Of a stretch of 21,959 nt of DNA, positions 1,992 through 18,020 are shown in pieces (position 1 is the first letter of the stretch; the number at the start of each line of letters is the position of its first letter). The stretch lies in the IMG/VR virus record IMGVR_UViG_3300017769_000149, positions 1-21,959 of that record; one strand, written 5' to 3'. A model generated the notes under the pieces. That model worked only from the letters and a program-made list of their open reading frames with translations, searched no databases and had not been told where the DNA came from. The translations under genes were made by a program, and so were the position numbers. Source of the stretch: a virus.

Positions 1992-2321
1992 ATGAATGGA
2001 AAGCATCTTTTAGTTAACGGTAAAAATGTGACTGCGGACGTTGATGACGAATCTTTGTGGAGAGAAGTCTTCGACAAAACTGTTGACATAACCAAGACAA
2101 CCAAAATGCGTGACTTTGATCTTGTCAAGTTTCCAGAGAAAGGTGTGACGGCTTTTCTTGTTCTTGGTGAGTCTCACATTTCTGTTCACACATACCCCGA
2201 AGATAACGCTTACTACTTCGATGTTTTTTCATGCAAAGATTTTAATGTGACGAGGGTTGTTCGGATTCTTTTGGACATCCTTGGAACTCACGACATGGAG
2301 TATGAGTTTTTACAGCGATGA
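1992..2321 (+). CDS. speD: S-adenosylmethionine decarboxylase proenzyme
   Basis: A 109-residue pyruvoyl-dependent AdoMet decarboxylase of the small bacterial class. It makes decarboxylated AdoMet, the aminopropyl donor for spermidine synthesis. The signature GESHISVHTYPE (59-70) contains the self-cleavage site Glu60-Ser61; Ser61 would become the pyruvoyl group. His66 and Cys81 (in DVFSCKD) sit at the same spacing as the Thermotoga maritima catalytic set Ser63/His68/Cys83, so the enzyme looks complete. It lies 9 bases after the fusion gene with no clear Shine-Dalgarno sequence, and overlaps the next gene by 4 bases. It opens a three-gene polyamine cassette with a divergent SpeD paralogue and SpeE. 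Confidence 0.93.
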   Translation: MNGKHLLVNGKNVTADVDDESLWREVFDKTVDITKTTKMRDFDLVKFPEKGVTAFLVLGESHISVHTYPEDNAYYFDVFSCKDFNVTRVVRILLDILGTHDMEYEFLQR

Positions 2322-2701
2322 ACTATGTGAGTAAGAAACAGTTTTCGGGACAGGAAATGTGGGGACTTTCCACTTGCGTTGATCTATACAATTGCAATTA
2401 CCGAATTAAGCACGCTGACGAGATCGAGCGATACGTTGTAGAACTCTGTGACTTGATCGACATGAAAAGATTTGGTCCATGTAATGTCGTTCACTTTGGA
2501 GAGGATCCAAAGGTGGAGGGATTCTCCATGACGCAGTTGATCGAAACGTCTTTGATTTCCGGTCACTTTGCAAACAAAACATGGACCGCATATTTGGATA
2601 TCTTTAGTTGCAAGTGGTATGACCAAAGAGTGGTCGAGGCATTTAGCAGAGAATTTTTTGGATCAAACAAATCTGAATGTAAGGTGAATATTCGACAATG
2701 A
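2318..2701 (+). CDS. Divergent SpeD-like pyruvoyl decarboxylase homologue
   Basis: A 127-residue homologue of SpeD, of a type found in T4-like cyanophages and usually annotated AdoMet decarboxylase. The motif SMTQLIETSLISGHFANK (70-87) aligns with the SpeD active site. Ser78, His83 and Cys98 (in DIFSCKW) keep exactly the Ser-5-His-15-Cys spacing of the upstream SpeD (61/66/81). However, the residue before the putative pyruvoyl serine is Thr77 instead of Glu, and the HTYPE segment is replaced by HFANK. These changes could mean altered processing or another substrate. Pyruvoyl enzymes with other residues before the serine exist, and SpeD relatives acting on arginine or ornithine have been reported. 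It overlaps both neighbours by 4 bases and sits between speD and speE, so a role in polyamine synthesis is likely; AdoMet, ornithine or arginine are all possible substrates, as is a non-catalytic partner of SpeD. Confidence 0.8.
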   Translation: MNYVSKKQFSGQEMWGLSTCVDLYNCNYRIKHADEIERYVVELCDLIDMKRFGPCNVVHFGEDPKVEGFSMTQLIETSLISGHFANKTWTAYLDIFSCKWYDQRVVEAFSREFFGSNKSECKVNIRQ

Positions 2702-3543
2702 AAATTACAGATAGTTGGGATGAAGCACTTGGACGAACAATTTCAATTGACGGTAAGTTAATCAAAGAGGTTCAGTCCGAATACCAAAACATTAAAGTTT
2801 ATGACACACTGTCGTTTGGTAAACTTTTGCAACTCGATGGTGTGATTCAACTCACCGAGTTTGATGAAGCAAACTACCATGAGATGTTTGCACATGTTCC
2901 TCTGACATCACATGAAAACCCAGAGCGTGTTCTGGTGATCGGTGGTGGTGATGGTGGCATTGTTCGTGAGGTAGTAAAGCACAAGCATGTCAAGAAGATT
3001 GACTTGGTTGAGATTGATGAAGAGGTTATTAAAATCTCCGAGGAACATTTTCCAAACATCTCATGTGGTCTACAAGATCCTAGAGTGACTATTCATTTTG
3101 ATGATGGTTCGTCTTACATTAAGGACTTGGAGTTTCAGTATGATGTTATTATCATTGATTCTACCGATCCGATTAGTGTGGGTGAGTCTTTGTTCACAGA
3201 AGAATTTTATAAGGATCTTACCCAAGCAATTCGTAAACACGGGATGATTGTGTCTCAGTCCGAAAGTATGTTTTACAACGCATCTATGATTTCTAACTTG
3301 AAAGAAGTTAAGACTAAATACTTTGGATCTGTTAAGTATTATTACACTATGGTTCCGACATATCCTTCGGGAACAATCGGTTTTCAAATTTGCTCTGATG
3401 GTCATTATAGCCCACACCACCCAAATGAAAATTATCGACACGGAACTTTAGGATATGATTTGGGTGATCTCAAGTATTACAATGCTGGGATTCACATTGG
3501 AAGTTTTCTTTTACCGAATGAGGTTAAACAATGGCACAAATGA
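2698..3543 (+). CDS. speE: Spermidine synthase (polyamine aminopropyltransferase)
   Basis: A 281-residue class I methyltransferase-fold enzyme that transfers the aminopropyl group from decarboxylated AdoMet to putrescine, giving spermidine. Visible family features are YHEM (60-63), the nucleotide-binding loop IGGGDGG (81-87), LVEIDEEV (103-110), the catalytic and gate segment IDSTDPISVGESLF (153-166) and the substrate-side motif PTYPSG (220-225). Length is normal for bacterial SpeE. The usual GPA after DSTDPI reads SVG here, a modest change in the gate loop. It overlaps the SpeD-like gene by 4 bases and the next gene by 13. With speD upstream, the last two steps of spermidine synthesis are present. 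No putrescine-forming enzyme is evident in the window unless the middle gene supplies it. Confidence 0.93.
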   Translation: MKITDSWDEALGRTISIDGKLIKEVQSEYQNIKVYDTLSFGKLLQLDGVIQLTEFDEANYHEMFAHVPLTSHENPERVLVIGGGDGGIVREVVKHKHVKKIDLVEIDEEVIKISEEHFPNISCGLQDPRVTIHFDDGSSYIKDLEFQYDVIIIDSTDPISVGESLFTEEFYKDLTQAIRKHGMIVSQSESMFYNASMISNLKEVKTKYFGSVKYYYTMVPTYPSGTIGFQICSDGHYSPHHPNENYRHGTLGYDLGDLKYYNAGIHIGSFLLPNEVKQWHK

Positions 3544-7421: not shown

Positions 7422-7448
7422 AAAGGGAGCCTTTTGGCTCCCTTTTTT
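7422..7448. terminator. Rho-independent terminator between convergent genes
   Basis: AAAGGGAGCC (7422-7431) and GGCTCCCTTT (7436-7445) form a perfect 10-bp stem with a TTTT loop. On the plus strand the stem runs directly into a T tract ending at 7448, ideal for the 7052 gene. On the minus strand the stem is followed by TTTCTTATTC, a weaker tract, so it may also stop the minus-strand structural operon. The minus-strand stop codon at 7449-7447 overlaps the T run. Confidence 0.9.
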
Positions 7449-10400
7449 AATATGAGTATCCCCCCATTGATCCACTTGATGGTGGTGATGGGGGAGGTGT
7501 TGGTGTTACAGTTGCTCTTCTTGGTGCCGCTGTGGGTACTGGTGTGGGTGCTGGTGTTTGTTGCACATAGGTAATCGCTGCTTGAGTTCGTTCTGTGATT
7601 GAGTAACCCGGATCAACCACAACCGCATTTGTATCTGTGACATCGGTATACTTACCCACAAACACTTGCTCTTCTACATCAGGGTTATCGTTAAACAAAC
7701 AGTTAGTGTCTTTGCAAGAAACACCCGGACTGAAGAAACCACCTTGATGCTGACAAGCAATCCTGTTAACATATCGTTTCTGGAAACCACCCGGCTCCGG
7801 AACGCAACAGCAACCAACTGCACATGGTGTATCATAGTCTTCACATTTGTTCAGTAAAGTTCTGTGTGTAGCGTTTTCTGGACAACCCTGTCCCAGAGTT
7901 GATGTGCTACATGTGTATGAAGTAATGTCTCCAAACTCATTTTGTGTTGGGGTACAACAAAGAAGTGGTTCGTCCGGTCCATATTCACTTCCGCATGGAT
8001 TTCTTGGATCGTCGCAAGATTGTCCAGCAAAAAATGTTTTGGCACTGTCAACACTGTCATCACAATCTTCTGGTCTTGTCGTTTCACCATAGGTGATAAT
8101 TGATCCGTCTGGAAGATACTCTACTTGACAGCAACAACCATTACACGGACCGGATTCACACTCTGCACCGGGATTATGTAATCCACCAAGTCGATCACAA
8201 TCATCTTTTGTTAAGTTGTCAATCGTTGTATTACCAACACAGCAACATCCTTTTGGTGACGGTGTTCCTGTCGGTGAAATTACTGGACCTAAACACTCTG
8301 GACATTCGGTCTGCATAAGTGATTGAACTCGTGCCCAGTATTGATTTGCTCTCGCACATGGTCCACCACCTTCCGCTTCGTTTGGATTCTGATAACAACA
8401 ATCCGGTTTTTGGCAACATCTATGACCGCATGTTCCCTCCTTATGCATTTTTGCTAAGTCTTCGCATGTGTAACATGTGTGTCCGTCTTGACGACTCTTA
8501 TGTCCACTACCTGTGCAAGCAGGGAGTCCACATGTTCGTTTTCCTTGATTTCGAGTCCACCTTCTATACCAACAATAGACAATAAGTCTGGACAGTTTTA
8601 ACTTAAATTGACAACATTCCACTTGAAGCAGTAAAGGAAGTTCGCTACAATCTCGACAAAGCAGTTCATGTGCATTTGCCGGTATGTCGCAGCAGTGTGG
8701 TTCACTTTGTCCTCCACCATAACGACAAACGCTTCTTGCGTCTTCGATGTACGCTGGGAAAATTTGGAATGGACCACAACCATTAGCCGTGGCGGACGCT
8801 CTAGCATCGCATTGTTTAAGCGGCTGTTGATCATCAAACGGATTTCTCCAATCACCAGACTCAACCGCTTGAATCGCTTTGAACAAACACTCCATACAAT
8901 TTGTTTGACATCCTCGTTGTTCACATGTGCAACAAGTGTTTACTCCACCGGGAAAGTCTGGAGGATCTCTTAATGTTGGGTAGTTTCCGTTCGCTATGTC
9001 TTCGGGACTAACGGTGATGTATTCGGGATCATATGGAATTGATCTAGCATAAGTTTCATCATCGACATAGTTACCGTGAAATTGTTGACCCAGCACATCA
9101 AGACCGTTTGGCATAAAGTAGGTAATGCCGTCCAAAACGTGAATATGATACCCAATAAATCCTAGTTGTCTTTCTTCCTCGTTTCTGGCTTGAGTTGGAG
9201 TTGGACTTGCGGCAACTGCGGACTGGGCAGTATTGTAAAGCGGATAATATCCACTAATTGAAAACGGACCAATTGCTCTTTTTTCTTTGACGTTATAAAG
9301 TCCAAGATAATATTCATATAGAGAATCAGAGTTACACGGAAGGTAATACTCTTGATCATTTACTTTTTGTGTTCTGATGCCGGGACAACCCAACATAGAC
9401 GATCTCTTGACTGCTTTTTCTTCAGTGAGGAACATGTCATAGGCTTCAAAAATAGATTCAGAATAATCATTCGTCCGAATGACGGGTGATGTTACAGAAG
9501 ACTCATTTGATGCTTTTTTAACGACAATCTCACCACCAAGATCCGTACCCTCGATGTACCAATAATAATTTCTATAATCAATCGGTGGACGGAATGTAAC
9601 ATAAGCACCAACAGACCCGAGAGATCCAGAGCGATCAACACCGCTACTAAATTCACTTGCACCTACATTACTTCCACCACGAACTTTTGATATCGCAAAT
9701 CTTTTTCCTAAGTTCTTCAAACTAGGATCGGATAAATCGAAACGATAATATTCACCCGCAAAAAGTTCTATGTTTGTTTTGCTTTCATCATTAATGGTAA
9801 ACGAATCGTTATTGTATTTAATATCAAATAGTTCTTTTACAATCTGACGAATTGACCGAGGGACTTTAACTTGTCCAAGCGTTTGAACATAGTCTCTATA
9901 TTCTCCCGTGGAAAGAAGGTTTGTTGGAACAACCTCCGGTTCCTCTGGTTGCTGTGTTAGCAGTTGATCTGAACTCTGAAATGTTTCGGGACAAAGATCA
10001 CAACTACCATCCATTGGACCCTCAACATTTGTTAAGTTATAATCTTCCCTGTCCGCTCGAATTGTAGCCCAGAAATTATAGTTTTCCTCACATTCCACAA
10101 ACTGATTTGGTTCGATATATCTTTGTGTGTTTGTGTCAAAGATTGTTTCTTTTGCATAGTAACAATTTTTAAACTTAGTGTCAGAGCCTCGACCCTTGAA
10201 GAGCGTTATAATAACCGGAGATCCAGTAAAGTTTGCCTCTTCAAGCCTTCGATTGACAGAAATAATTTCTGTGCCGTCACTGGCAATATCAATGTCGGTA
10301 ATTTTGTATAATTTGTTTTCGTTTGCTGCCGCAGATGCCCCAGAAAGTTTTAATGTATCACCAATTAAAGCACCTAAGTTTGCAAAGGATTCACTTGAGT

Positions 10401-10896
10401 CAACACCAAGTTCATTTACAATTTTATATGATTGTGTATTATTTGGTGGAAGAGTGATTCCAATCAAAGGTGTAGTATCAAAAAAGTTTGACTTATAAAT
10501 GTTTCTTTCTGTATCGTAAGAAACACCAGAGACAGGGGTTACTAAAATTCTGTCGTCACCGATGAATCTCTTAAACGTGTAGGTTCCTGAAAAGTCGGCT
10601 TTGATTCCTTGGATAGAATCTGAGTAATTTGCATTTTCAATGGTAAACTGTTTGTTTGTTCCTTTTTTTCGGAAAATTGATTGGAACTCATCCAAGTCCA
10701 AACGATTTTTGACACTGGAGTAGTCAACGAGAACATCAGTTCCCTGAATAATAAAATTTGGTTTACTCGTTAATCTTCTCTCGGAAAATAAATCATCCTC
10801 TGAGTCTATAAACCTCAGTCCTAAAAAAGTCTTTGAATCTACAGCGTTTAATCTTCTGTTAGATGCATAAGAGTCATTATAAATGTCATTATTCAT
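7447..10896 (-). CDS. Large Cys-rich virion structural protein with i-type (destabilase) lysozyme-like domain
   Basis: A 1149-residue protein. Residues 1-645 are beta-rich, with nearly no Cys, and look like tail or baseplate appendage structure. Residues about 655-830 resemble invertebrate-type lysozyme: CMECLFKAIQAVESG (667-681) with candidate catalytic Glu679, GCGPFQIFPAYIEDA (706-720) preceded by candidate Asp697, and CEDLAKMHKEGTCGHRC (811-827) matching the family's C-terminal YARIHNGGPxGC block. Residues 884-1066 hold four CCC-led cysteine repeats; I count about 52 Cys between 655 and 1066. The end is a Pro/Thr linker and GGYSY. It would degrade cell-wall glycan or act as a host-binding disulphide-rich appendage (inference). 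It follows the fibre-like gene with one base between stop and start; AGG lies about 8 bases upstream. Confidence 0.85.
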   Translation of the reverse strand: MNNDIYNDSYASNRRLNAVDSKTFLGLRFIDSEDDLFSERRLTSKPNFIIQGTDVLVDYSSVKNRLDLDEFQSIFRKKGTNKQFTIENANYSDSIQGIKADFSGTYTFKRFIGDDRILVTPVSGVSYDTERNIYKSNFFDTTPLIGITLPPNNTQSYKIVNELGVDSSESFANLGALIGDTLKLSGASAAANENKLYKITDIDIASDGTEIISVNRRLEEANFTGSPVIITLFKGRGSDTKFKNCYYAKETIFDTNTQRYIEPNQFVECEENYNFWATIRADREDYNLTNVEGPMDGSCDLCPETFQSSDQLLTQQPEEPEVVPTNLLSTGEYRDYVQTLGQVKVPRSIRQIVKELFDIKYNNDSFTINDESKTNIELFAGEYYRFDLSDPSLKNLGKRFAISKVRGGSNVGASEFSSGVDRSGSLGSVGAYVTFRPPIDYRNYYWYIEGTDLGGEIVVKKASNESSVTSPVIRTNDYSESIFEAYDMFLTEEKAVKRSSMLGCPGIRTQKVNDQEYYLPCNSDSLYEYYLGLYNVKEKRAIGPFSISGYYPLYNTAQSAVAASPTPTQARNEEERQLGFIGYHIHVLDGITYFMPNGLDVLGQQFHGNYVDDETYARSIPYDPEYITVSPEDIANGNYPTLRDPPDFPGGVNTCCTCEQRGCQTNCMECLFKAIQAVESGDWRNPFDDQQPLKQCDARASATANGCGPFQIFPAYIEDARSVCRYGGGQSEPHCCDIPANAHELLCRDCSELPLLLQVECCQFKLKLSRLIVYCWYRRWTRNQGKRTCGLPACTGSGHKSRQDGHTCYTCEDLAKMHKEGTCGHRCCQKPDCCYQNPNEAEGGGPCARANQYWARVQSLMQTECPECLGPVISPTGTPSPKGCCCVGNTTIDNLTKDDCDRLGGLHNPGAECESGPCNGCCCQVEYLPDGSIITYGETTRPEDCDDSVDSAKTFFAGQSCDDPRNPCGSEYGPDEPLLCCTPTQNEFGDITSYTCSTSTLGQGCPENATHRTLLNKCEDYDTPCAVGCCCVPEPGGFQKRYVNRIACQHQGGFFSPGVSCKDTNCLFNDNPDVEEQVFVGKYTDVTDTNAVVVDPGYSITERTQAAITYVQQTPAPTPVPTAAPRRATVTPTPPPSPPSSGSMGGYSY
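7699..8247 (-). repeat. Four tandem cysteine-rich protein repeats
   Basis: In the 1149-residue protein, residues 884-1066 contain four units that each open with CCC or CC and then follow the pattern C-x-n-C, G/F-rich turn, G-x2-C, x4-6, P/N-C. They begin near residues 884, 921, 980 and 1029. Units 1 and 4 are closest (GCCCV, then CDRLGG or CQHQGG, then PGAEC or PGVSC). The pattern resembles bacterial extracellular GACCL-type cysteine repeats. Divergence between units is high, so the duplication is old. Confidence 0.7.
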
Positions 10897-10897
10897 A

Positions 10898-12187
10898 TTA
10901 AGAACCTAAGTAGTAAACAGTTTGCGCACCTTTGCCACCGCCGGATCGAACATAAATTAATCCAACATCGCTAACGTTTATGAAACAAGACTCACCGGGT
11001 TCAAGTGGATATCCTGCCCCCGCATTCAGTGTCAATGCAAAGTTTCCGACCAGAACACTATCTGTATTGTCAATGTCTGCCTTAATCTTAACACCAACTT
11101 TAACCGACAGACCACTTGTGATTTGTATCGCACCAGTCGGGGGTACGGATTTTAATCCAGCATGGATGATCCCCGGTTGCTCAGTTTCTGAAATCTTAAC
11201 TTTGACATTACCAGAATTAAGATCATTGCGAATTAATGGGATGCTATCAGTATCTTGATTAATACCAGAAAGATTTGTGATAAGAGGTTTCGAGGAACTT
11301 TCAAGAGAATTTACAATATTTGTATCATCAATTGTTTGAGTTCCGCTGAATGAAACCGGAAGAGAGGACAGAGAGGTGACGGGAATCGCACCACCATACT
11401 CACCCTTAACCAGCACTGGTTCACCACCAGAAAGTCCCTGAACTCTCAAAGCGTTACCTGCGGAGTCGTTTGTAACCCCAGTCGTTGCAGAAACGGTTAC
11501 ATTCGCAGTGAATGATGTGTTGGTGACTGCAACTTTCAGAGAGTCTCCAGAGAATCCTGCGGTTGAACCGGATCTGTCTTTTGCTAAAACAACTGGAACA
11601 TATGGTGTTGCGTCTGAGCCGAAAACTTTAATACTGTCGGTTGCAGCAAGAATTGTTCTACCACCAGAAACCCCAATAACACTGTTTTCAATACTAACAC
11701 TGTCCGTTGAGTGATTTAATCTTCTTCCACCAGTTACCGCAATTGCGGTGGCACCACTTAATCCAAAGACGGCAAGTCCAGTATTATTGGAAACATTTAC
11801 CGTTCCTGAAACGGGAACAGGGAAACCACCACTAATACCTTGAATGGTTCCCGTGATACCAACGTTTCCTCCCGTTGAAGTTCCAGCAACTTTAATAAAG
11901 TTATTCGTTACACCTGTTGGCACTGGCTCAAACGGAACAACAATTGTTGCGTTACCAGTAAGACCAACCGAACCAGAGACACCAACAAGTTCTTGGTTAC
12001 TTTGAATTGTGATTGGTAATGGGGTACTTGCCGAAACACGAGTGCTTACAGTGTCATCACCAAAGGCAATTTTCTGGATAGGAATGTGAGCGTTGGTAAT
12101 TCCAACCCCAGATGAAGCGAAATCTGTTGCCATATTGGCTGTGTTACCGCTAATGTCGATGATGATGTTTGATCCGGTATCAGGCAT
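10898..12187 (-). CDS. Repetitive fibre-like virion protein (429 aa)
   Basis: A 429-residue protein dominated by Gly, Ser, Thr, Val and Asn in short beta-type repeats: GVSGS, GLTGN, GITGT, GISGG, GLSGG, GFSGD and similar G-x-S/T-G units recur roughly every 15-35 residues from about 70 to 260. The C-terminal 80 residues form a compact domain (DNTDSVLVGNFALTLNAG, YPLEPGESCFINVSD, GGGKGAQTVYYLGS) of a type common at the ends of phage structural proteins. This suggests a trimeric beta-helical fibre or decoration protein. GGAG is 7 bases before the start. It leads a two-gene minus-strand operon with the Cys-rich protein. No signal peptide or enzymatic motif is seen. Confidence 0.8.
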   Translation of the reverse strand: MPDTGSNIIIDISGNTANMATDFASSGVGITNAHIPIQKIAFGDDTVSTRVSASTPLPITIQSNQELVGVSGSVGLTGNATIVVPFEPVPTGVTNNFIKVAGTSTGGNVGITGTIQGISGGFPVPVSGTVNVSNNTGLAVFGLSGATAIAVTGGRRLNHSTDSVSIENSVIGVSGGRTILAATDSIKVFGSDATPYVPVVLAKDRSGSTAGFSGDSLKVAVTNTSFTANVTVSATTGVTNDSAGNALRVQGLSGGEPVLVKGEYGGAIPVTSLSSLPVSFSGTQTIDDTNIVNSLESSSKPLITNLSGINQDTDSIPLIRNDLNSGNVKVKISETEQPGIIHAGLKSVPPTGAIQITSGLSVKVGVKIKADIDNTDSVLVGNFALTLNAGAGYPLEPGESCFINVSDVGLIYVRSGGGKGAQTVYYLGS

Positions 12188-13445: not shown

Positions 13446-13470
13446 CCCCCGCTTCGGCGGGGGTTTTTTT
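13446..13470. terminator. Strong rho-independent terminator after gp32
   Basis: CCCCCGC (13446-13452) and GCGGGGG (13457-13463) form a GC-only 7-bp stem with a stable TTCG loop, followed by seven T (13464-13470). The plus strand is a textbook terminator. The minus side is followed by CTTTTC, a weaker T tract, so it can also serve the tape-measure-like operon. The minus-strand stop (13471-13469) lies in the T tract. Confidence 0.95.
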
Positions 13471-15169
13471 ATCCGTTTCCTATTCTCCAGATAGGGAACA
13501 TTTTATTTGCCATACCTATCATGTCAAACATAGTTTGACCACCTCCACCTCCACCGAGTCCTGTCGCATGAGGTGTCTTTACTTTCGCTGGATTTGAAGG
13601 TTTCACTCTTGGTGTGTTTGCTTGTGAAGTTTGTTCTCTTCCGGACTGCGAATTTCTATATTTTTCTCGCTGTTCTTGAAGAGCGGAAAGTTGTGCGGAA
13701 AACTCTTTCATTTTTTGCTCTCCCTCCATCGTGATAAGTTCTTCTCTGAGTTTTTCTCCTCTTGGTGCTGGTCGATAATCAATCCCACCGGGCGCCTGTT
13801 CATCTCGATGTCGTTGCACAACAGCCCGTGCGGCTCCCAAGTAGTCTCTATCCTTGTCCATAGCATCCGTCATCGGGTACATATATTTTTCATTCCGAGG
13901 ATCAAATGGACGGCTAGGAAGCACTAATGGATTGTTGTCCATACCTCTGTCTATTTCTAGATCCACTGGGCTACCTTGAGGACCAATGCCATTGATTGTT
14001 AATAAGTTCTGTCGTTGTCTTTCTGCACGTTCAAAGACATCTATACCAGCCTTACGCACCAATCTTGCCTTACTCTCCTCATTTTTTCGATCCAAACCCG
14101 CAAGTCTTTTTTGTCTATCTGATCTTGCTTTTTCTTTTTCTGCTGCTTCTTTCTCTCGATCTGCAAACATCTTTTCCCGTCTTGCACGCAAATCCTTTCC
14201 CGGTTCTCCAACACTCTTCATTCTTTCTTCTGCTCGTCTATCGAGTTTAGCACTCTGAGATTCTTGAGTTTCTGGTCTTGGAATTCCTCCGGGCCCATAC
14301 CTATCTCTCAAATCCATCGCTAAAACCGGTCTTCGATCTCTTTGCATTTGTAGATACATTTCTGGATTTACTTTCTCTGCGGTTTTCAAAATCTGTTCGG
14401 CACGATCTGGAAATCTTTCTGCCTGTGTTATTAGGACTTGAATCTCTGCACGATCTTTTCTGTTCTGTATCCCAGAACTAAATCTCTCTGATTCCACTTG
14501 TCCGGGTGTTTTTAAAAGTCCGGGTGTAGTGGGAGCAATTTTGTCTAGTCTTGCTCTAAATTCTTGATTGTATGAATCCATGTCAGATGAAGGAGATGGG
14601 TTGGTTATTTGCCTAAACATACTGGAAATTTGAATTTCATCGGCGTTTGGCATAAGATTTCTTGCCATCGTCCCGAAACCCTCTTTACTCATGGGCATCT
14701 GATTATAAAGAGATCGTAATCTTTCTAGTGGAATCACAGCCTCTGGTCCATTTTCACCAATCAATGCTTGTGTTGGACTTGTAACAATACCACCTGTGCG
14801 TAATGCGGGAAGTTGTGTCATACCTTTTTCAGTTTTAATCACTGCTGTCTTGAAAGTATATTTGTCAAGTTTTTTGATATCTCGTGGGTCGATTTTTTTG
14901 AATTTAGTATCTTTTGGTGTGTTCTTACTCAACACTTTTTGTACCATATCTTTTAATTCATTAAAGTCCTTTTCGTATGAAACTTCTTTTGTTTCAGAAA
15001 CAGACTCCAACTTTTCTTGATCAAATCCTCTACTCTTACTGGTGAACTGAATTGCATTGAAAAATTCAACCTCACTCATTGGAGTTGGTGTAGTCTCTTT
15101 CTTCCGCTTTCTCCCCTTTTTCTTTCCACCAAGAGAGTCTATAATTTTATCTAAGGGTTTGTTTTGCAT
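13469..15169 (-). CDS. Tape-measure-like tail protein (gp29 position)
   Basis: A 566-residue protein. Residues 126-148 read GGIVTSPTQALIGENG followed by PEAVIPL, the G-x-ALIGExGPEAVIPL motif common in phage tail tape-measure proteins. Residues about 300-385 are an Arg/Lys/Glu-rich helix suited to a coiled coil, and the C-terminus has a Gly6 run and a hydrophobic MFDMIGMANKMF segment. It lies directly after gp26 and a -1-frame chaperone-like ORF, the place of the tape-measure gene in many tailed phages, and its length is close to T4 gp29 (590), so it may set tail length. In other phages the motif is often nearer the C-terminus, and no clear gp29 similarity is visible, so another hub-associated role remains possible. 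The start overlaps the upstream ORF by 23 bases. Confidence 0.6.
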   Translation of the reverse strand: MQNKPLDKIIDSLGGKKKGRKRKKETTPTPMSEVEFFNAIQFTSKSRGFDQEKLESVSETKEVSYEKDFNELKDMVQKVLSKNTPKDTKFKKIDPRDIKKLDKYTFKTAVIKTEKGMTQLPALRTGGIVTSPTQALIGENGPEAVIPLERLRSLYNQMPMSKEGFGTMARNLMPNADEIQISSMFRQITNPSPSSDMDSYNQEFRARLDKIAPTTPGLLKTPGQVESERFSSGIQNRKDRAEIQVLITQAERFPDRAEQILKTAEKVNPEMYLQMQRDRRPVLAMDLRDRYGPGGIPRPETQESQSAKLDRRAEERMKSVGEPGKDLRARREKMFADREKEAAEKEKARSDRQKRLAGLDRKNEESKARLVRKAGIDVFERAERQRQNLLTINGIGPQGSPVDLEIDRGMDNNPLVLPSRPFDPRNEKYMYPMTDAMDKDRDYLGAARAVVQRHRDEQAPGGIDYRPAPRGEKLREELITMEGEQKMKEFSAQLSALQEQREKYRNSQSGREQTSQANTPRVKPSNPAKVKTPHATGLGGGGGGQTMFDMIGMANKMFPIWRIGNG

Positions 15170-15350
15170 TTTGTCTTTCCCGTAACTTTTTGTTTTCCTC
15201 TTCGATATGTTGTTTTACTAATTCAACATAAATGTCTCTTTCCCACGGAATCATCATGTCGGTTTCAAGTAAACTCATCTTAAAGTGTATAAACAAATCA
15301 AAATTAATTTTAAATATTGTTTCTAACGAGTCATGGCAAAGACTTAGCCG
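15147..15350 (-). CDS. gp51-like / tail-assembly-chaperone extension, probably made by -1 frameshift from gp26
   Basis: In the -1 frame relative to gp26, a frame is open from the gp26 slip site to TAA at 15149-15147, encoding 67 residues that begin RLSLCHDSLETIFKINF. It includes HFKMSLLETDMMIPWERDIY and a charged helical end (EEENKKLRERQ). The MxPWERxIY block is, from memory, typical of cyanophage gp26/gp51-region proteins. Read alone it could start at ATG 15278 with a weak AAG site (43 residues), but the conserved-looking helix before that ATG suggests fusion to gp26, giving 295 residues. In lambda-type phages such G/GT fusions chaperone the tape-measure protein, which is the next gene here. 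Confidence 0.65.
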   Translation of the reverse strand, partial: RLSLCHDSLETIFKINFDLFIHFKMSLLETDMMIPWERDIYVELVKQHIEEENKKLRERQNAKQTLR

Positions 15351-16033
15351 AAAAAATCTTTCATTCCCTCCAACTTAATTGATCTTTCCGTACCGTCCGA
15401 TGTTCTGTATGGTACATCCATTGTAATTTTTGGTTGCTCAAGAAGGTAGTCTTGAATTTTATAATATTGTTCCTTTGTGAGATTTTCCAATATGGTTTCC
15501 TTTTCCGTCGCACTCAAAGAAACACCTTCATACACTTCGTCTTCCACAACAATTTTTTCAACACAGTGTGAAAGAATACTATCAAAATCCGTGTTACTCT
15601 CTTCAATGTAATCTCGAACCATAGGAGAACGCATATGAAAAGTAATTGCATCGTTTATTTTAATTTCAGAAGCCGGATTGTTTCTTGAAATTTCAATTTT
15701 TGTTAAATCAATTCCAATTTTGACGTTTTCACCCGTTTCTGGACAAGTAAAAATCGGTTCCACCATCTCAGAAACAGATTTTGATCGAATTTGACAAAAA
15801 AGGTATTCTAGATCGTGCATTGGAATCTTCTTTGCATCATTGACGTTATCCACGCAGTTTTCAACGACTGCGGCAATCGCTAAAAGCATTTCGGATGACT
15901 TTTCTGAATCTGCCATCATCAAAACTCTTTGCTCTTTCATCAAAAACGGTCTAAATGTGGTTTTTGATCCCGTTGACGGAATAACTACCTCATATTTTGG
16001 TAAAGTTGTTTGTATCGCTTCAAGTATGCTCAT
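15344..16033 (-). CDS. 26: gp26-like baseplate hub / tail assembly protein
   Basis: A 229-residue protein matching the gp26 family of T4-like phages (T4 gp26: 208 residues). Recognised segments are LPKYEVVIPSTGSKTTFRPF (12-31), LMKEQRVLMMADSE (32-45), DLEYLFCQIRSKSVSEM (74-90) and a TCPETGENVKIGIDL block (100-114). T4 gp26 takes part in making the baseplate hub. AGGAG sits 6 bases before the ATG. It lies between the tail-tube-fold gene and the tape-measure-like gene. The last codons form a slippery site, so two products are likely: this one and a longer -1 fusion. The family position and the frameshift suggest a tail-assembly-chaperone role rather than only a hub part (inference). Confidence 0.85.
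   Translation of the reverse strand: MSILEAIQTTLPKYEVVIPSTGSKTTFRPFLMKEQRVLMMADSEKSSEMLLAIAAVVENCVDNVNDAKKIPMHDLEYLFCQIRSKSVSEMVEPIFTCPETGENVKIGIDLTKIEISRNNPASEIKINDAITFHMRSPMVRDYIEESNTDFDSILSHCVEKIVVEDEVYEGVSLSATEKETILENLTKEQYYKIQDYLLEQPKITMDVPYRTSDGTERSIKLEGMKDFFG
15350..15356 (-). promoter_or_regulatory. Candidate -1 ribosomal frameshift site T_TTT_TTC
   Basis: At the end of gp26 the codons GAT TTT TTC GGC TAA contain the heptamer T_TTT_TTC in the correct phase (X_XXY_YYZ). Slippage back one base re-reads TTT TTT CGG and continues for 67 codons instead of stopping two codons later. A small GGC/GCC stem with loop AGTC able to pair with downstream GACT lies immediately after, possibly a mini-pseudoknot, though its spacing is short. 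Confidence 0.65.
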
Positions 16034-16048
16034 TATCTTCTCCTATTA

Positions 16049-16642
16049 TCAATAACTTGCTGGGTTGCTTCCCAGAGATCCAATTTCGGGTATGTATTCT
16101 TTAAATCCAATTGCCACATTAAGCATGGCAAGTTGATTCATTTGCTCTTGCGAGTATGTTTCTTGAATGATGGTTGAAACATAAGGTTCAATGACTCGCA
16201 TTTGCCATCTGATGTTATCGTTCATATCCAAAAAAGAAATCCTCATGGTTGAACCTTCCGCAAGATTAACATAACTACCGCTGCGTTGAAGGTAGGCATC
16301 AGAAACGTCTTGAGTTAATGGGTAAAACCTGTCTGCCCATTTTTCAAAAAACGCTCTGGTGAACCAATTCTGATCTATAAAAAATCCAAGTAGAATGGTT
16401 GCTTCTCCACCATACGCTCTTCTCATCGGAACTATTCGTGGGTTTGAACCTTGGGCAACGATATCGTCTGGCATCCCAAGAAAACTTCTACCGGGAAGAG
16501 ATACCGTTTGTGCGGGCATACTTAAAGTACCAATCCCCTCGACGTTAATAAAAACCTCGAACCGATTTGCTCGTTGAAGTCCTCTGGAAATAACTTTCCA
16601 TCTTAGTGCATCGGGGTTTGATGGATGTCTTGATTTTGCCAT
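16049..16642 (-). CDS. Tail-tube-fold protein (gp19/gp54-like)
   Basis: A 197-residue protein with the layout of T4-like tail-tube proteins: ANRFEVFINVEGIGTLSMPA (25-44), QTVSLPGRSF (45-54), TILLGFFIDQNWFTRAFFEKW (82-102) and a C-terminal VIEPYVSTIIQETYS and LNVAIGFKEY strand pair. The NRFEV-x-I start, S-x-PGRS turn and ILLGFFID-x-N strand recall the gp19/gp54/gp48 fold that forms the inner tail tube and its initiator. Being next to gp26, gp4 and gp48, and not next to a sheath gene, it is more likely a gp54-like tube initiator than the main tube protein gp19, although T4 gp54 is longer (320). Its ATG overlaps the gp4 stop as TAATG. Confidence 0.7.
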   Translation of the reverse strand: MAKSRHPSNPDALRWKVISRGLQRANRFEVFINVEGIGTLSMPAQTVSLPGRSFLGMPDDIVAQGSNPRIVPMRRAYGGEATILLGFFIDQNWFTRAFFEKWADRFYPLTQDVSDAYLQRSGSYVNLAEGSTMRISFLDMNDNIRWQMRVIEPYVSTIIQETYSQEQMNQLAMLNVAIGFKEYIPEIGSLGSNPASY

Positions 16643-17073
16643 TAAAATATTTCCTTTTCAGTTAAAACCAAAAATTCCCAGTTCTTTTTAGAGCAAAAAT
16701 CCTCGGCTGCCCTCCATTTCGCTTGGTTTACAACATATGTAGCACATTCGTTTGCATATGTGGCTTTTCTTTTTTTACCTCGCTCTGGTTTTTTTGTTTG
16801 TTTAAATGGTTTAACCTCAATAACTTTTGTTTTTACGTCACCAGTATTTTCTTTTATCCTAACGATAAAGTCCGGAAAGTAACGATGTCTTCGATTGTCC
16901 AGAGGAGAAATGTACGGTATGACTATTTCTTCACTTCCCCAATTTATCACATTTTCGTTTGTATCAAGGTATTTGCAAACACGACGTTCCCATAGTGACC
17001 TACATATAATGTTGGTGTAGTCACCTACATACTTAGATTCATTTAACGGTTTGTAAACTGTTTTGTATGCCAT
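16642..17073 (-). CDS. 4: gp4-like head completion protein
   Basis: A 143-residue homologue of T4 gp4 (also called gp50; 150 residues), needed to complete filled heads before tail joining. The family has a restriction-endonuclease-like or TnsA-like core. Visible blocks are YVGDYTNIICRSLWERRVCK (15-34), VINWGSEEIVIPYISPLD (42-59), RHRYFPDFIVRI (62-73) and TKVIEVKPFKQT (81-92). PD in the third block and E-x-K in the fourth give the PD-(D/E)xK nuclease signature. The frame is open to 17157, but the upstream residues are low-complexity and overlap gp48, so I start at ATG 17073 (MAYKTVYKP). It is divergent from gp48 with only 23 bases between the starts, and is the first gene of the minus-strand tail operon. 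Confidence 0.9.
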   Translation of the reverse strand: MAYKTVYKPLNESKYVGDYTNIICRSLWERRVCKYLDTNENVINWGSEEIVIPYISPLDNRRHRYFPDFIVRIKENTGDVKTKVIEVKPFKQTKKPERGKKRKATYANECATYVVNQAKWRAAEDFCSKKNWEFLVLTEKEIF

Positions 17074-17096
17074 ACTATATTTAGGTGGGGGTAACA

Positions 17097-18020
17097 ATGG
17101 CTGAAGAAGAATATGAACCCGATTTGCTCGATAATCAAATTGCTGGAGCGTATCCAACGAATAATGTTAATTTGGAATACCCAGAGTATAGACAAAACGA
17201 AGTTAGATACTGGCTCAACTTTTCTGCTAGAAGATATAGTAACAGAAGAGCAGAAAAAGCAGGTGGTGGACGAAAAGGTAAATTAGTAGATATTACATTA
17301 CCAATGCCCACAAATATGAACTCAACATCAAATGTTAATTATGAAATTGATCAAAGCAATGAAACACCCTTTATTGAAGTCATACAAAGTAGTCTCGATC
17401 AACTCATGGCTGGGAACGTTTTAGGTGCGGCAAAACGTGCTATCGGTGGTATTCTTGATCCGTTGTCTGAAAGTATTATTGACTTAACTGTTGGTGGAAA
17501 TCTTGGTCGAGTCAGTATGGACACGGGTGAGAGTTTATTCCAATCCGCAAACCCCAGAACATTTAACTTTTCGTTTGCATTGATCGCTAGAAATGCAAGC
17601 GAATCTACAAAGATTGGTAGAATTGCAAAAGCGTTTGAAGCATATGCTCTTCCCTTCCCTGCAACCAGCCTTGCTGGTAACATCTCTGCCAACGCAATGA
17701 TTCACCCACCACTTTGGTCGTGGTCTCCATACGTTACAACTCCTACTGGATTTGGATTTGTTCAAACGAAAGAACAAAAGCCAAATTTAGAATTTTGGAC
17801 AAGTAGTCCGCAAACCTCCGTTCTCACTCAAGTTAGTGTTGATAAAACACCACTGAATACCATTTCTGGTTCTGGTAGTGACGCACCAATCGCAACAATT
17901 ATTACTTTACAATATTTAGAACTAGAGCCAAACATGAATGTTAACGGAAAAATTAGAAGTCGTTCTGCTATTACAAGTAAAGCAGGTCAAAGTATTGATG
18001 CAAGTGGATTATTTGGCTGA
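17097..18020 (+). CDS. 48: gp48-like baseplate tail tube cap
   Basis: A 307-residue protein similar to T4-like gp48 (T4: 364), which caps the baseplate and receives the tail tube. Visible features are an acidic start (MAEEEYEPD), a VDITLPMPTNM strand (about 64-74), a helical linker with LGAAKRAIGGILDPLSESII (near 115-135), a FNFSFALIARNASESTKIG strand and helix (near 154-172) that is the tube-fold core, and FPATSLAGNISANAMIHPP. The C-terminal TIITLQYLELEP strand closes the fold. GTG 17085 would add four residues, but AGGTGG (17083-17088) is well spaced for ATG 17097. Its stop codon overlaps the gp53 start. Confidence 0.8.
   Translation: MAEEEYEPDLLDNQIAGAYPTNNVNLEYPEYRQNEVRYWLNFSARRYSNRRAEKAGGGRKGKLVDITLPMPTNMNSTSNVNYEIDQSNETPFIEVIQSSLDQLMAGNVLGAAKRAIGGILDPLSESIIDLTVGGNLGRVSMDTGESLFQSANPRTFNFSFALIARNASESTKIGRIAKAFEAYALPFPATSLAGNISANAMIHPPLWSWSPYVTTPTGFGFVQTKEQKPNLEFWTSSPQTSVLTQVSVDKTPLNTISGSGSDAPIATIITLQYLELEPNMNVNGKIRSRSAITSKAGQSIDASGLFG

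Follow-up and report, generated by a model that had tools for sequence, protein, structure and literature searches.

In phage lambda the tail assembly chaperone (TAC) pair gpG/gpGT is made by a −1 frameshift on the slip heptamer G_GGA_AAG, and the tail gene frameshift of phage P2 is likewise a comparable system. The dnaX gene of E. coli combines a Shine-Dalgarno (SD)-like element, the slippery sequence A_AAA_AAG and a downstream hairpin. For T4-like phages, Vladimirov, Gautam and Davidson reportedly found in 2022 that the frameshift is conserved in several groups and that T4 uses genes 26 and 51; the T4 chaperones would be gp26 (TAC-N) and gp51 (TAC-NC). G-T frameshifting is called widely conserved "except T4" and neither lambda gpG nor gpGT is found in the virion (2016 review by Atkins et al., PMC5009743), some T4-like phages are stated to have a short and a fused copy in place of frameshifting (PRFect paper, citing Vladimirov et al. 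2022; PMC10885494), and poly-T sequences are named as known −1 signals in TAC-N genes of T4-like phages (phage Adele paper, citing Vladimirov et al. 2022; PMC12846349). Here we analysed the virus record IMGVR_UViG_3300017769_000149, a T4-like phage fragment of 21,959 bases (the window), in which gene 26 is followed by an open reading frame (ORF) in its −1 frame. Judged from sequence, the two very probably form one tail assembly chaperone gene with two products made via a −1 slip; the observed sequence elements, their conservation, selection on the −1 frame, a fused homologue and a fold match point to this.

The window carries gp32-like, gp4-like, gp48-like and gp53-like genes, which were recognized by profile matches as T4-like. 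The locus lies on the minus strand and contains the following elements.

15344..16033, minus strand: gp26, putative short tail assembly chaperone (TAC-N), zero frame, 229 amino acids (aa); PF12322 E 1.4e-49, phrog_150 E 5.4e-51
15366..15371, minus strand: SD-like GGAGGG, 9 nucleotides (nt) upstream of the heptamer, putative dnaX-type stimulator; seen in the sequence
15350..15356, minus strand: slippery heptamer T_TTT_TTC, in phase, after which GGC TAA ends gp26; seen in the sequence and kept in relatives
15344..15346, minus strand: stop codon TAA of gp26, which a −1 shift would bypass; seen in the sequence
15147..15353, minus strand: −1 frame domain TAC-C ("gp51" domain), from the slip to the stop codon; phrog_634 E 1.6e-19
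15276..15278, minus strand: first ATG of the −1 frame, codon 26 counted from the slipped Phe codon, an unlikely start that would lose the predicted helix 10-23

The match of gp26 to PF12322 scores 169.2 bits, above the curated cut-off of 24.5. The 3′ end of the gene reads GGA ATG AAA GAT TTT TTC GGC TAA, with GAT at 15358-15356 and TTC at 15352-15350, and the −1 frame stays open for 67 codons past the slip, up to a stop at 15149-15147 (minus strand). The joined product would have 295 aa and would read ...KDFF and then RLSLCHDSLE... across the joint. The downstream gene of 566 aa begins at ATG 15169 (minus strand) and overlaps TAC-C by 23 nt. An earlier reading of the letters alone (the sequence-only reading) had described the in-phase heptamer at the end of gp26, the 67 open codons and the 23-base overlap, and the sequence bears out all three. 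In-phase T_TTT_TTN occurs five times, gp26 site included, in the 6789 codons of the 22 ORFs taken as the main genes of the window. In these 22 ORFs none of 753 sampled positions had a −1 frame open for at least 67 codons. Stretches of at least 24 open codons were found at 39% of random frames and positions in the window, and the caveat given at the time, that 24 open codons are not rare by chance, is thus fair. What counts as evidence is conservation, and openness of the −1 frame does not.

A total of 181 entries with a gp26 match were compared: 179 loci that were fetched, the window, and L001, which is a copy of the window. The end of the gp26 ORF lies inside the locus in 175 of them; 167 have a −1 ORF (tandem loci) and eight do not. 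Some contigs were fetched twice, and 128 distinct slip regions are left once identical ones, including the window's own copy, are removed. T_TTT_TTN is present in phase and at the same place in all 167 tandem loci (third base C in 127, T in 38 and A in 2) and in all 128 distinct slip regions (C 97, T 29, A 2). In locus L007, for example, the gp26 ORF, as defined by hidden Markov model, has GAT TTT TTT. In the two loci with A at the third position the residue changes to Leu and the heptamer is retained. Given the amino acids and the codon usage of the genes, xxT TTT would be retained by every one of 31 clusters (50% identity) with a probability of about 2e-13 (log10 P = −12.7). The −1 ORF has 53-74 codons in all 167 tandem loci. 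The zero-frame stop lies 0, 1, 3 or 8 codons past the heptamer (13, 131, 12 and 11 of the 167 loci, respectively). The distance to the stop thus varies while the heptamer stays, so that the heptamer and not the stop is the fixed element. The eight gp26 ORFs without a −1 ORF are seven T4-group genes and L180, the gp26 of which is 99% alike to that of L179 and L043 (phage Moby, six T's) and runs into another frame. A separate observation concerns the 11 loci L037, L145-L149, L153-L155, L158 and L159, where the zero frame extends eight codons beyond the unmoved heptamer and the two frames overlap.

The −1 frame translation matches phrog_634 ("baseplate hub assembly catalyst", gp51) with residues 2 to 64 (71.3 bits, E 1.6e-19) and also, weakly, the extreme C-terminal end of phrog_150, the profile of the gp26 family (E 0.012). 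Relatives of gp26 were found in 562 phage records, each with less than 60% identity to the window protein, and the −1 frame domain in 527, of which 446 have a name that begins with Synechococcus, Prochlorococcus or "Cyanophage". Among the 60 matches listed of these 527, the alignment starts at query residue 1 in 57 and at residue 2 in three, i.e., from the slip. With the slipped Phe codon as number 1, translation in the −1 frame of the window could start no earlier than codon 20 (TTG), followed by codon 26 (ATG 15278). Directly upstream of ATG 15278 no SD-like sequence was seen on inspection by eye, and this ATG falls inside the conserved phrog_634 domain. An AlphaFold2 model of TAC-C (predicted local distance difference test, pLDDT, 80.4) has helices at residues 10-23, 30-33 and 36-67; ATG 15278 is an unlikely start because initiation there would drop the predicted helix 10-23.

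Codons 4-23 of the −1 frame lie upstream of the window's ATG at codon 26. For these codons, 35 disjoint pairs of distinct relatives give a ratio of nonsynonymous to synonymous differences (pN/pS) of 0.13 in the −1 frame, while the two remaining frames give 1.47 and 1.96. Over all 482 pairs of distinct relatives the values are 0.20, 1.24 and 1.53, and with duplicates kept the −1 frame gives 0.14 (45 pairs) and 0.18 (787 pairs). In the family, purifying selection ahead of the ATG acts on the −1 frame alone. No ATG, GTG or TTG is present among the first nine −1 frame codons in 86 of the 167 loci (70 of the 128 distinct ones).

The T4 group contains the same domains in another arrangement. In T4 gp51 (249 aa), residues 1-201 correspond to PF12322 and residues 147-246 to phrog_634; T4 gp26 matches PF12322 alone and ends with ...GLKEFFELL. 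A profile made from −1 frame translations only matches the C-terminus of gp51 in all seven T4-group loci searched (E 3e-9 to 2e-7). T4 genes 26 and 51 are located on opposite strands. In gp51 both domains are fused and in T4 gp26 the first stands alone; T4 thus has as two genes what one gene here appears to do by a shift. T_TTT_TTN was found in none of the seven T4-group gp26 loci without a −1 ORF (four distinct 12-base sequences). At this place the genes read GAG or GAA TTC TTT, or GAG TTT TTT, TTC TTT being present in three of the four distinct sequences, and their −1 frame closes after one codon. The sequence-only reading had proposed that the gp26 pair follows the G/GT-type logic of −1 slippage and that relatives should be compared for the heptamer, the −1 frame and homologues fused in one frame. 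Conservation in every tandem locus (all 167, and all 128 distinct ones) and the fused gp51 of T4 and T4-group relatives support this proposal.

Two further observations were made in the T4 group. The GAG TTT TTT of L136, followed by a −1 frame that is shut after one codon, resembles the GTTTTT motif reported as a slip site in Vandenendeviridae (PMC12846349). T4 gp28 was considered as a T-like partner, gene 28 preceding gene 29 (tail length determinator), and was rejected, its best E to the joined product being 0.5; it matches its own family.

The gp26 model obtained with AlphaFold2 has a pLDDT of 94.4 (alignment of 46 sequences). Its best solved match is the HK97 tail assembly chaperone gp13 (2ob9; Z 8.5, root mean square deviation 3.8, 87 residues, 18% identity). 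The second is RBSTP2171 (3fgx, Z 6.8), which PMC9603447 counts among tail assembly chaperones; the following row has a Z of 4.5. Beyond residue ~90 (about 140 residues) the matches listed include no clear solved fold, which does not in itself speak for a new fold. A library of predicted viral proteins returned many T4-like baseplate hub proteins for the gp26 model, and a search of solved structures by sequence with the two alignments gave nothing credible.

Based on these data we propose the following course of events. Most ribosomes would terminate at TAA 15346-15344 and yield the short chaperone TAC-N (gp26). A minority would slip one base back on T_TTT_TTC, where tRNA-Phe could re-pair with UUU in both sites, and would translate 67 more codons to give TAC-NC, the long chaperone of 295 aa, which would carry a helical domain at its C-terminus. 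Slipping is probably favoured by the SD-like GGAGGG that precedes the heptamer by nine bases. By analogy with lambda gpG/gpGT, many short and few long copies might coat the tape measure protein, and the C-terminal domain might recruit tail tube subunits.

The signals around the slip site were compared across the family. Of 52 representatives (clusters at 70% identity), 44 have an SD-like 4-mer at a distance of 7-10 nt ahead of the heptamer; among random positions the count is 94 of 1040. The SD-like duplex energies are stronger than in synonymous recodings (t about −3.8, a value that is indicative only because the representatives are related), and a conserved glycine accounts for part of the enrichment. 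The 67 nt that directly follow the heptamer show an excess of RNA structure (mean z −1.57, standard error 0.23; other offsets −0.78 to +0.17). In many cyanophage relatives hairpins begin about six bases past the heptamer and have several unrelated sequences, according to single-sequence folds. In L038, L040 and L052-L129 (51-63 nt from the heptamer), such folds put at least three unrelated hairpin sequences at one place directly behind the heptamer in different cyanophage lineages. For the window itself, a downstream hairpin as part of the signal found no support (z −0.6 to −1.2). We see about an even chance that the gp26 slip of T4-like phages is a dnaX-like composite, in which U_UUU_UUN is preceded at 7-10 nt by a conserved SD-like element and followed by a hairpin of constant place but with a sequence rebuilt by lineage, that some lineages add a junction start codon, from which the free C-terminal domain may be made too, and that the T4 lineage later swapped the slip for a gene duplication.

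The pair is flanked by two genes that bear on its function.

16049..16642, minus strand: upstream tail-tube-like gene; phrog_45 tail tube E 1.4e-7
13469..15169, minus strand: downstream 566-aa gene, candidate tape measure; by position and short motif matches

The order is thus tail-tube-like gene, gp26/−1 ORF pair and 566-aa gene. T4 gp29 has 590 aa, and the position and length of the 566-aa gene suit a tape measure protein. Of 72 complete downstream ORFs with more than 300 aa, two contained a pattern for the tape-measure motif. When the downstream genes of five relatives were compared with the PHROGs, no family was common to all and none fell into the family of T4 gp29. With no common tape-measure family and a short motif only, the tape-measure label stays positional. 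The sequence-only reading had called the next gene tape-measure-like; the position fits this, and the label itself goes back to the short motif. Its suggestion that gp26 may be a tape-measure chaperone gains support from the modelled HK97 gp13-like fold (Z 8.5), the two-domain pattern and the gene order.

Other explanations were weighed against a −1 slip of the ribosome. The second ORF could be a separate small gene (gp51) with its own translation or with re-initiation after the gp26 stop. Annotation agrees with this, as the domain is a separate gene in 10 of the 13 named tandem records inspected (it is unannotated in DSL-LC03, Atu_ph04 and ACP17), and so does an ATG within nine codons of the junction in 66 of 167 loci (48 of 128 distinct). 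In the window, however, the first ATG is codon 26, past the predicted helix, and the codons ahead of it are under −1 frame selection in relatives. In addition, the heptamer is kept in every tandem locus, even in those with a junction ATG, whereas re-initiation needs no heptamer. We consider a separate gene very improbable. An RNA polymerase that adds one U on the T run would also bring the second ORF in frame, and a run of at least six T's is indeed conserved. Yet the run is short, the codon phase xxT TTT TTN is kept and the third base is not T in 129 of 167 loci, while slippage in transcription would not depend on phase; that an SD-like element precedes the heptamer by 7-10 nt likewise speaks for ribosomes. 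We consider transcriptional slippage slightly less probable still.

The T run might also simply follow from Phe codons, if conservation acted only at the protein level on the D/S-F-F end of gp26. The retention of FF in T4-group gp26 proteins without a −1 ORF fits this, but of the four distinct sequences there, three use TTC TTT and the remaining one (GAG TTT TTT) has no preceding T. In tandem loci, by contrast, the codons stay fixed whether the neighbouring residue is D, S, N or A (31 clusters, P about 2e-13), and the heptamer persists in two loci where F changes to L. We regard this explanation as close to negligible.

Several points weigh against a frameshifting chaperone gene. Frameshifting is inferred from sequence; its efficiency, the product ratio, the binding partners and the absence from the virion are inferred too. 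The fold match is modest: Foldseek alone puts 2ob9 first at E 0.12 (probability 0.96), and the notes of the aligner warn that a best Z of 7-8 is common without a clear match. The downstream 566-aa gene is not firmly a tape measure, its best tape-measure PHROG having an E of 3.5e-6 over 32 residues. In T4 gp26 no shift is needed, yet AGAGG still precedes the former slip position; the SD-like element is thus not specific to shifting, and AGAGG may be a remnant or mere codon choice. In the window no hairpin of note follows the heptamer (z −0.6 to −1.2). The hairpins of relatives show weak covariation, with one doubly changed pair in 3 of 11 sequences, and there is none in the P-SSM2-type set of 15, the stem of which hardly varies. 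A start codon is present within nine codons of the slip in 81 of 167 loci (58 of 128 distinct), so the domain could be made separately there. Window and L003, its one close distinct relative, have three base differences before the ATG, of which two are synonymous and one is not; with three differences only, the evidence of selection comes from the family and does not extend to this pair. L136, a T4-group gp26, retains GAG TTT TTT. Finally, L180 has five T's and hence no heptamer, which is possibly a homopolymer sequencing error.

Elsewhere in the window, a polyamine synthesis cassette at 1992-3543 (plus strand) consists of a spermidine synthase gene (PF01564) and a pair of neighbouring S-adenosylmethionine decarboxylase genes (PF02675). 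The head closure (gp4-like) protein at 16642-17157 (minus strand) also matches a TnsA-like endonuclease domain (PF08722, E 6.6e-23). The gene at 7447-10896 (minus strand) encodes a protein of 1149 aa with a visibly cysteine-rich second half and no Pfam match at E 0.001; that at 10898-12187 (minus strand) encodes a protein of 429 aa with no PHROG or Pfam match at E 0.1.

If our interpretation is correct, the genes now listed separately as "baseplate hub" and as "baseplate hub assembly catalyst" become one chaperone gene with two products, in a large phage group that includes marine cyanophages. The quantified signal, made up of heptamer, SD-like element and lineage-specific hairpins, may be useful and is testable with reporters. 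The sequence-only reading did not recall such logic as described for gp26; according to two citing papers, however, the T4-like chaperones were in print by 2022, both in their short form and in a long, fused one (PMC10885494, PMC12846349). As the principle is already published for T4-like phages, our results are a confirmation and extension rather than a surprise. Compared with the published case as presented in these papers, they appear to add the breadth of conservation, the SD-like element and the lineage-specific hairpins. In the literature searched, mostly at the level of titles and abstracts and with Vladimirov et al. 2022 known through citing papers, we noticed no paper on the cyanophage gp26 signal itself.

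Among the known systems, the dnaX signal is like this one in having an SD-like element roughly 10 nt ahead of the slippery heptamer; a hairpin some 6 nt behind the heptamer is a feature it shares with many relatives. It differs in that the slippery sequence here is U_UUU_UUC instead of A_AAA_AAG and the window has no clear hairpin; stimulation is putative. The likeness to HK97 gp13 (2ob9) is one of N-terminal fold: only the first ~90 residues of the longer gp26 match it, and about 140 further residues follow without a clear match. The gp26/gp26-51 pair looks like the chaperone pair of the lambda G/GT type, but the lambda heptamer differs from T_TTT_TTC. T4 gp26 and gp51 belong to the same families as the window pair (PF12322/phrog_150 and the phrog_634 domain), and the window phage is an uncultured, distant member of the T4-like group. 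In T4 the two forms come from two genes on opposite strands, whereas in the window one gene and a shift would give both.

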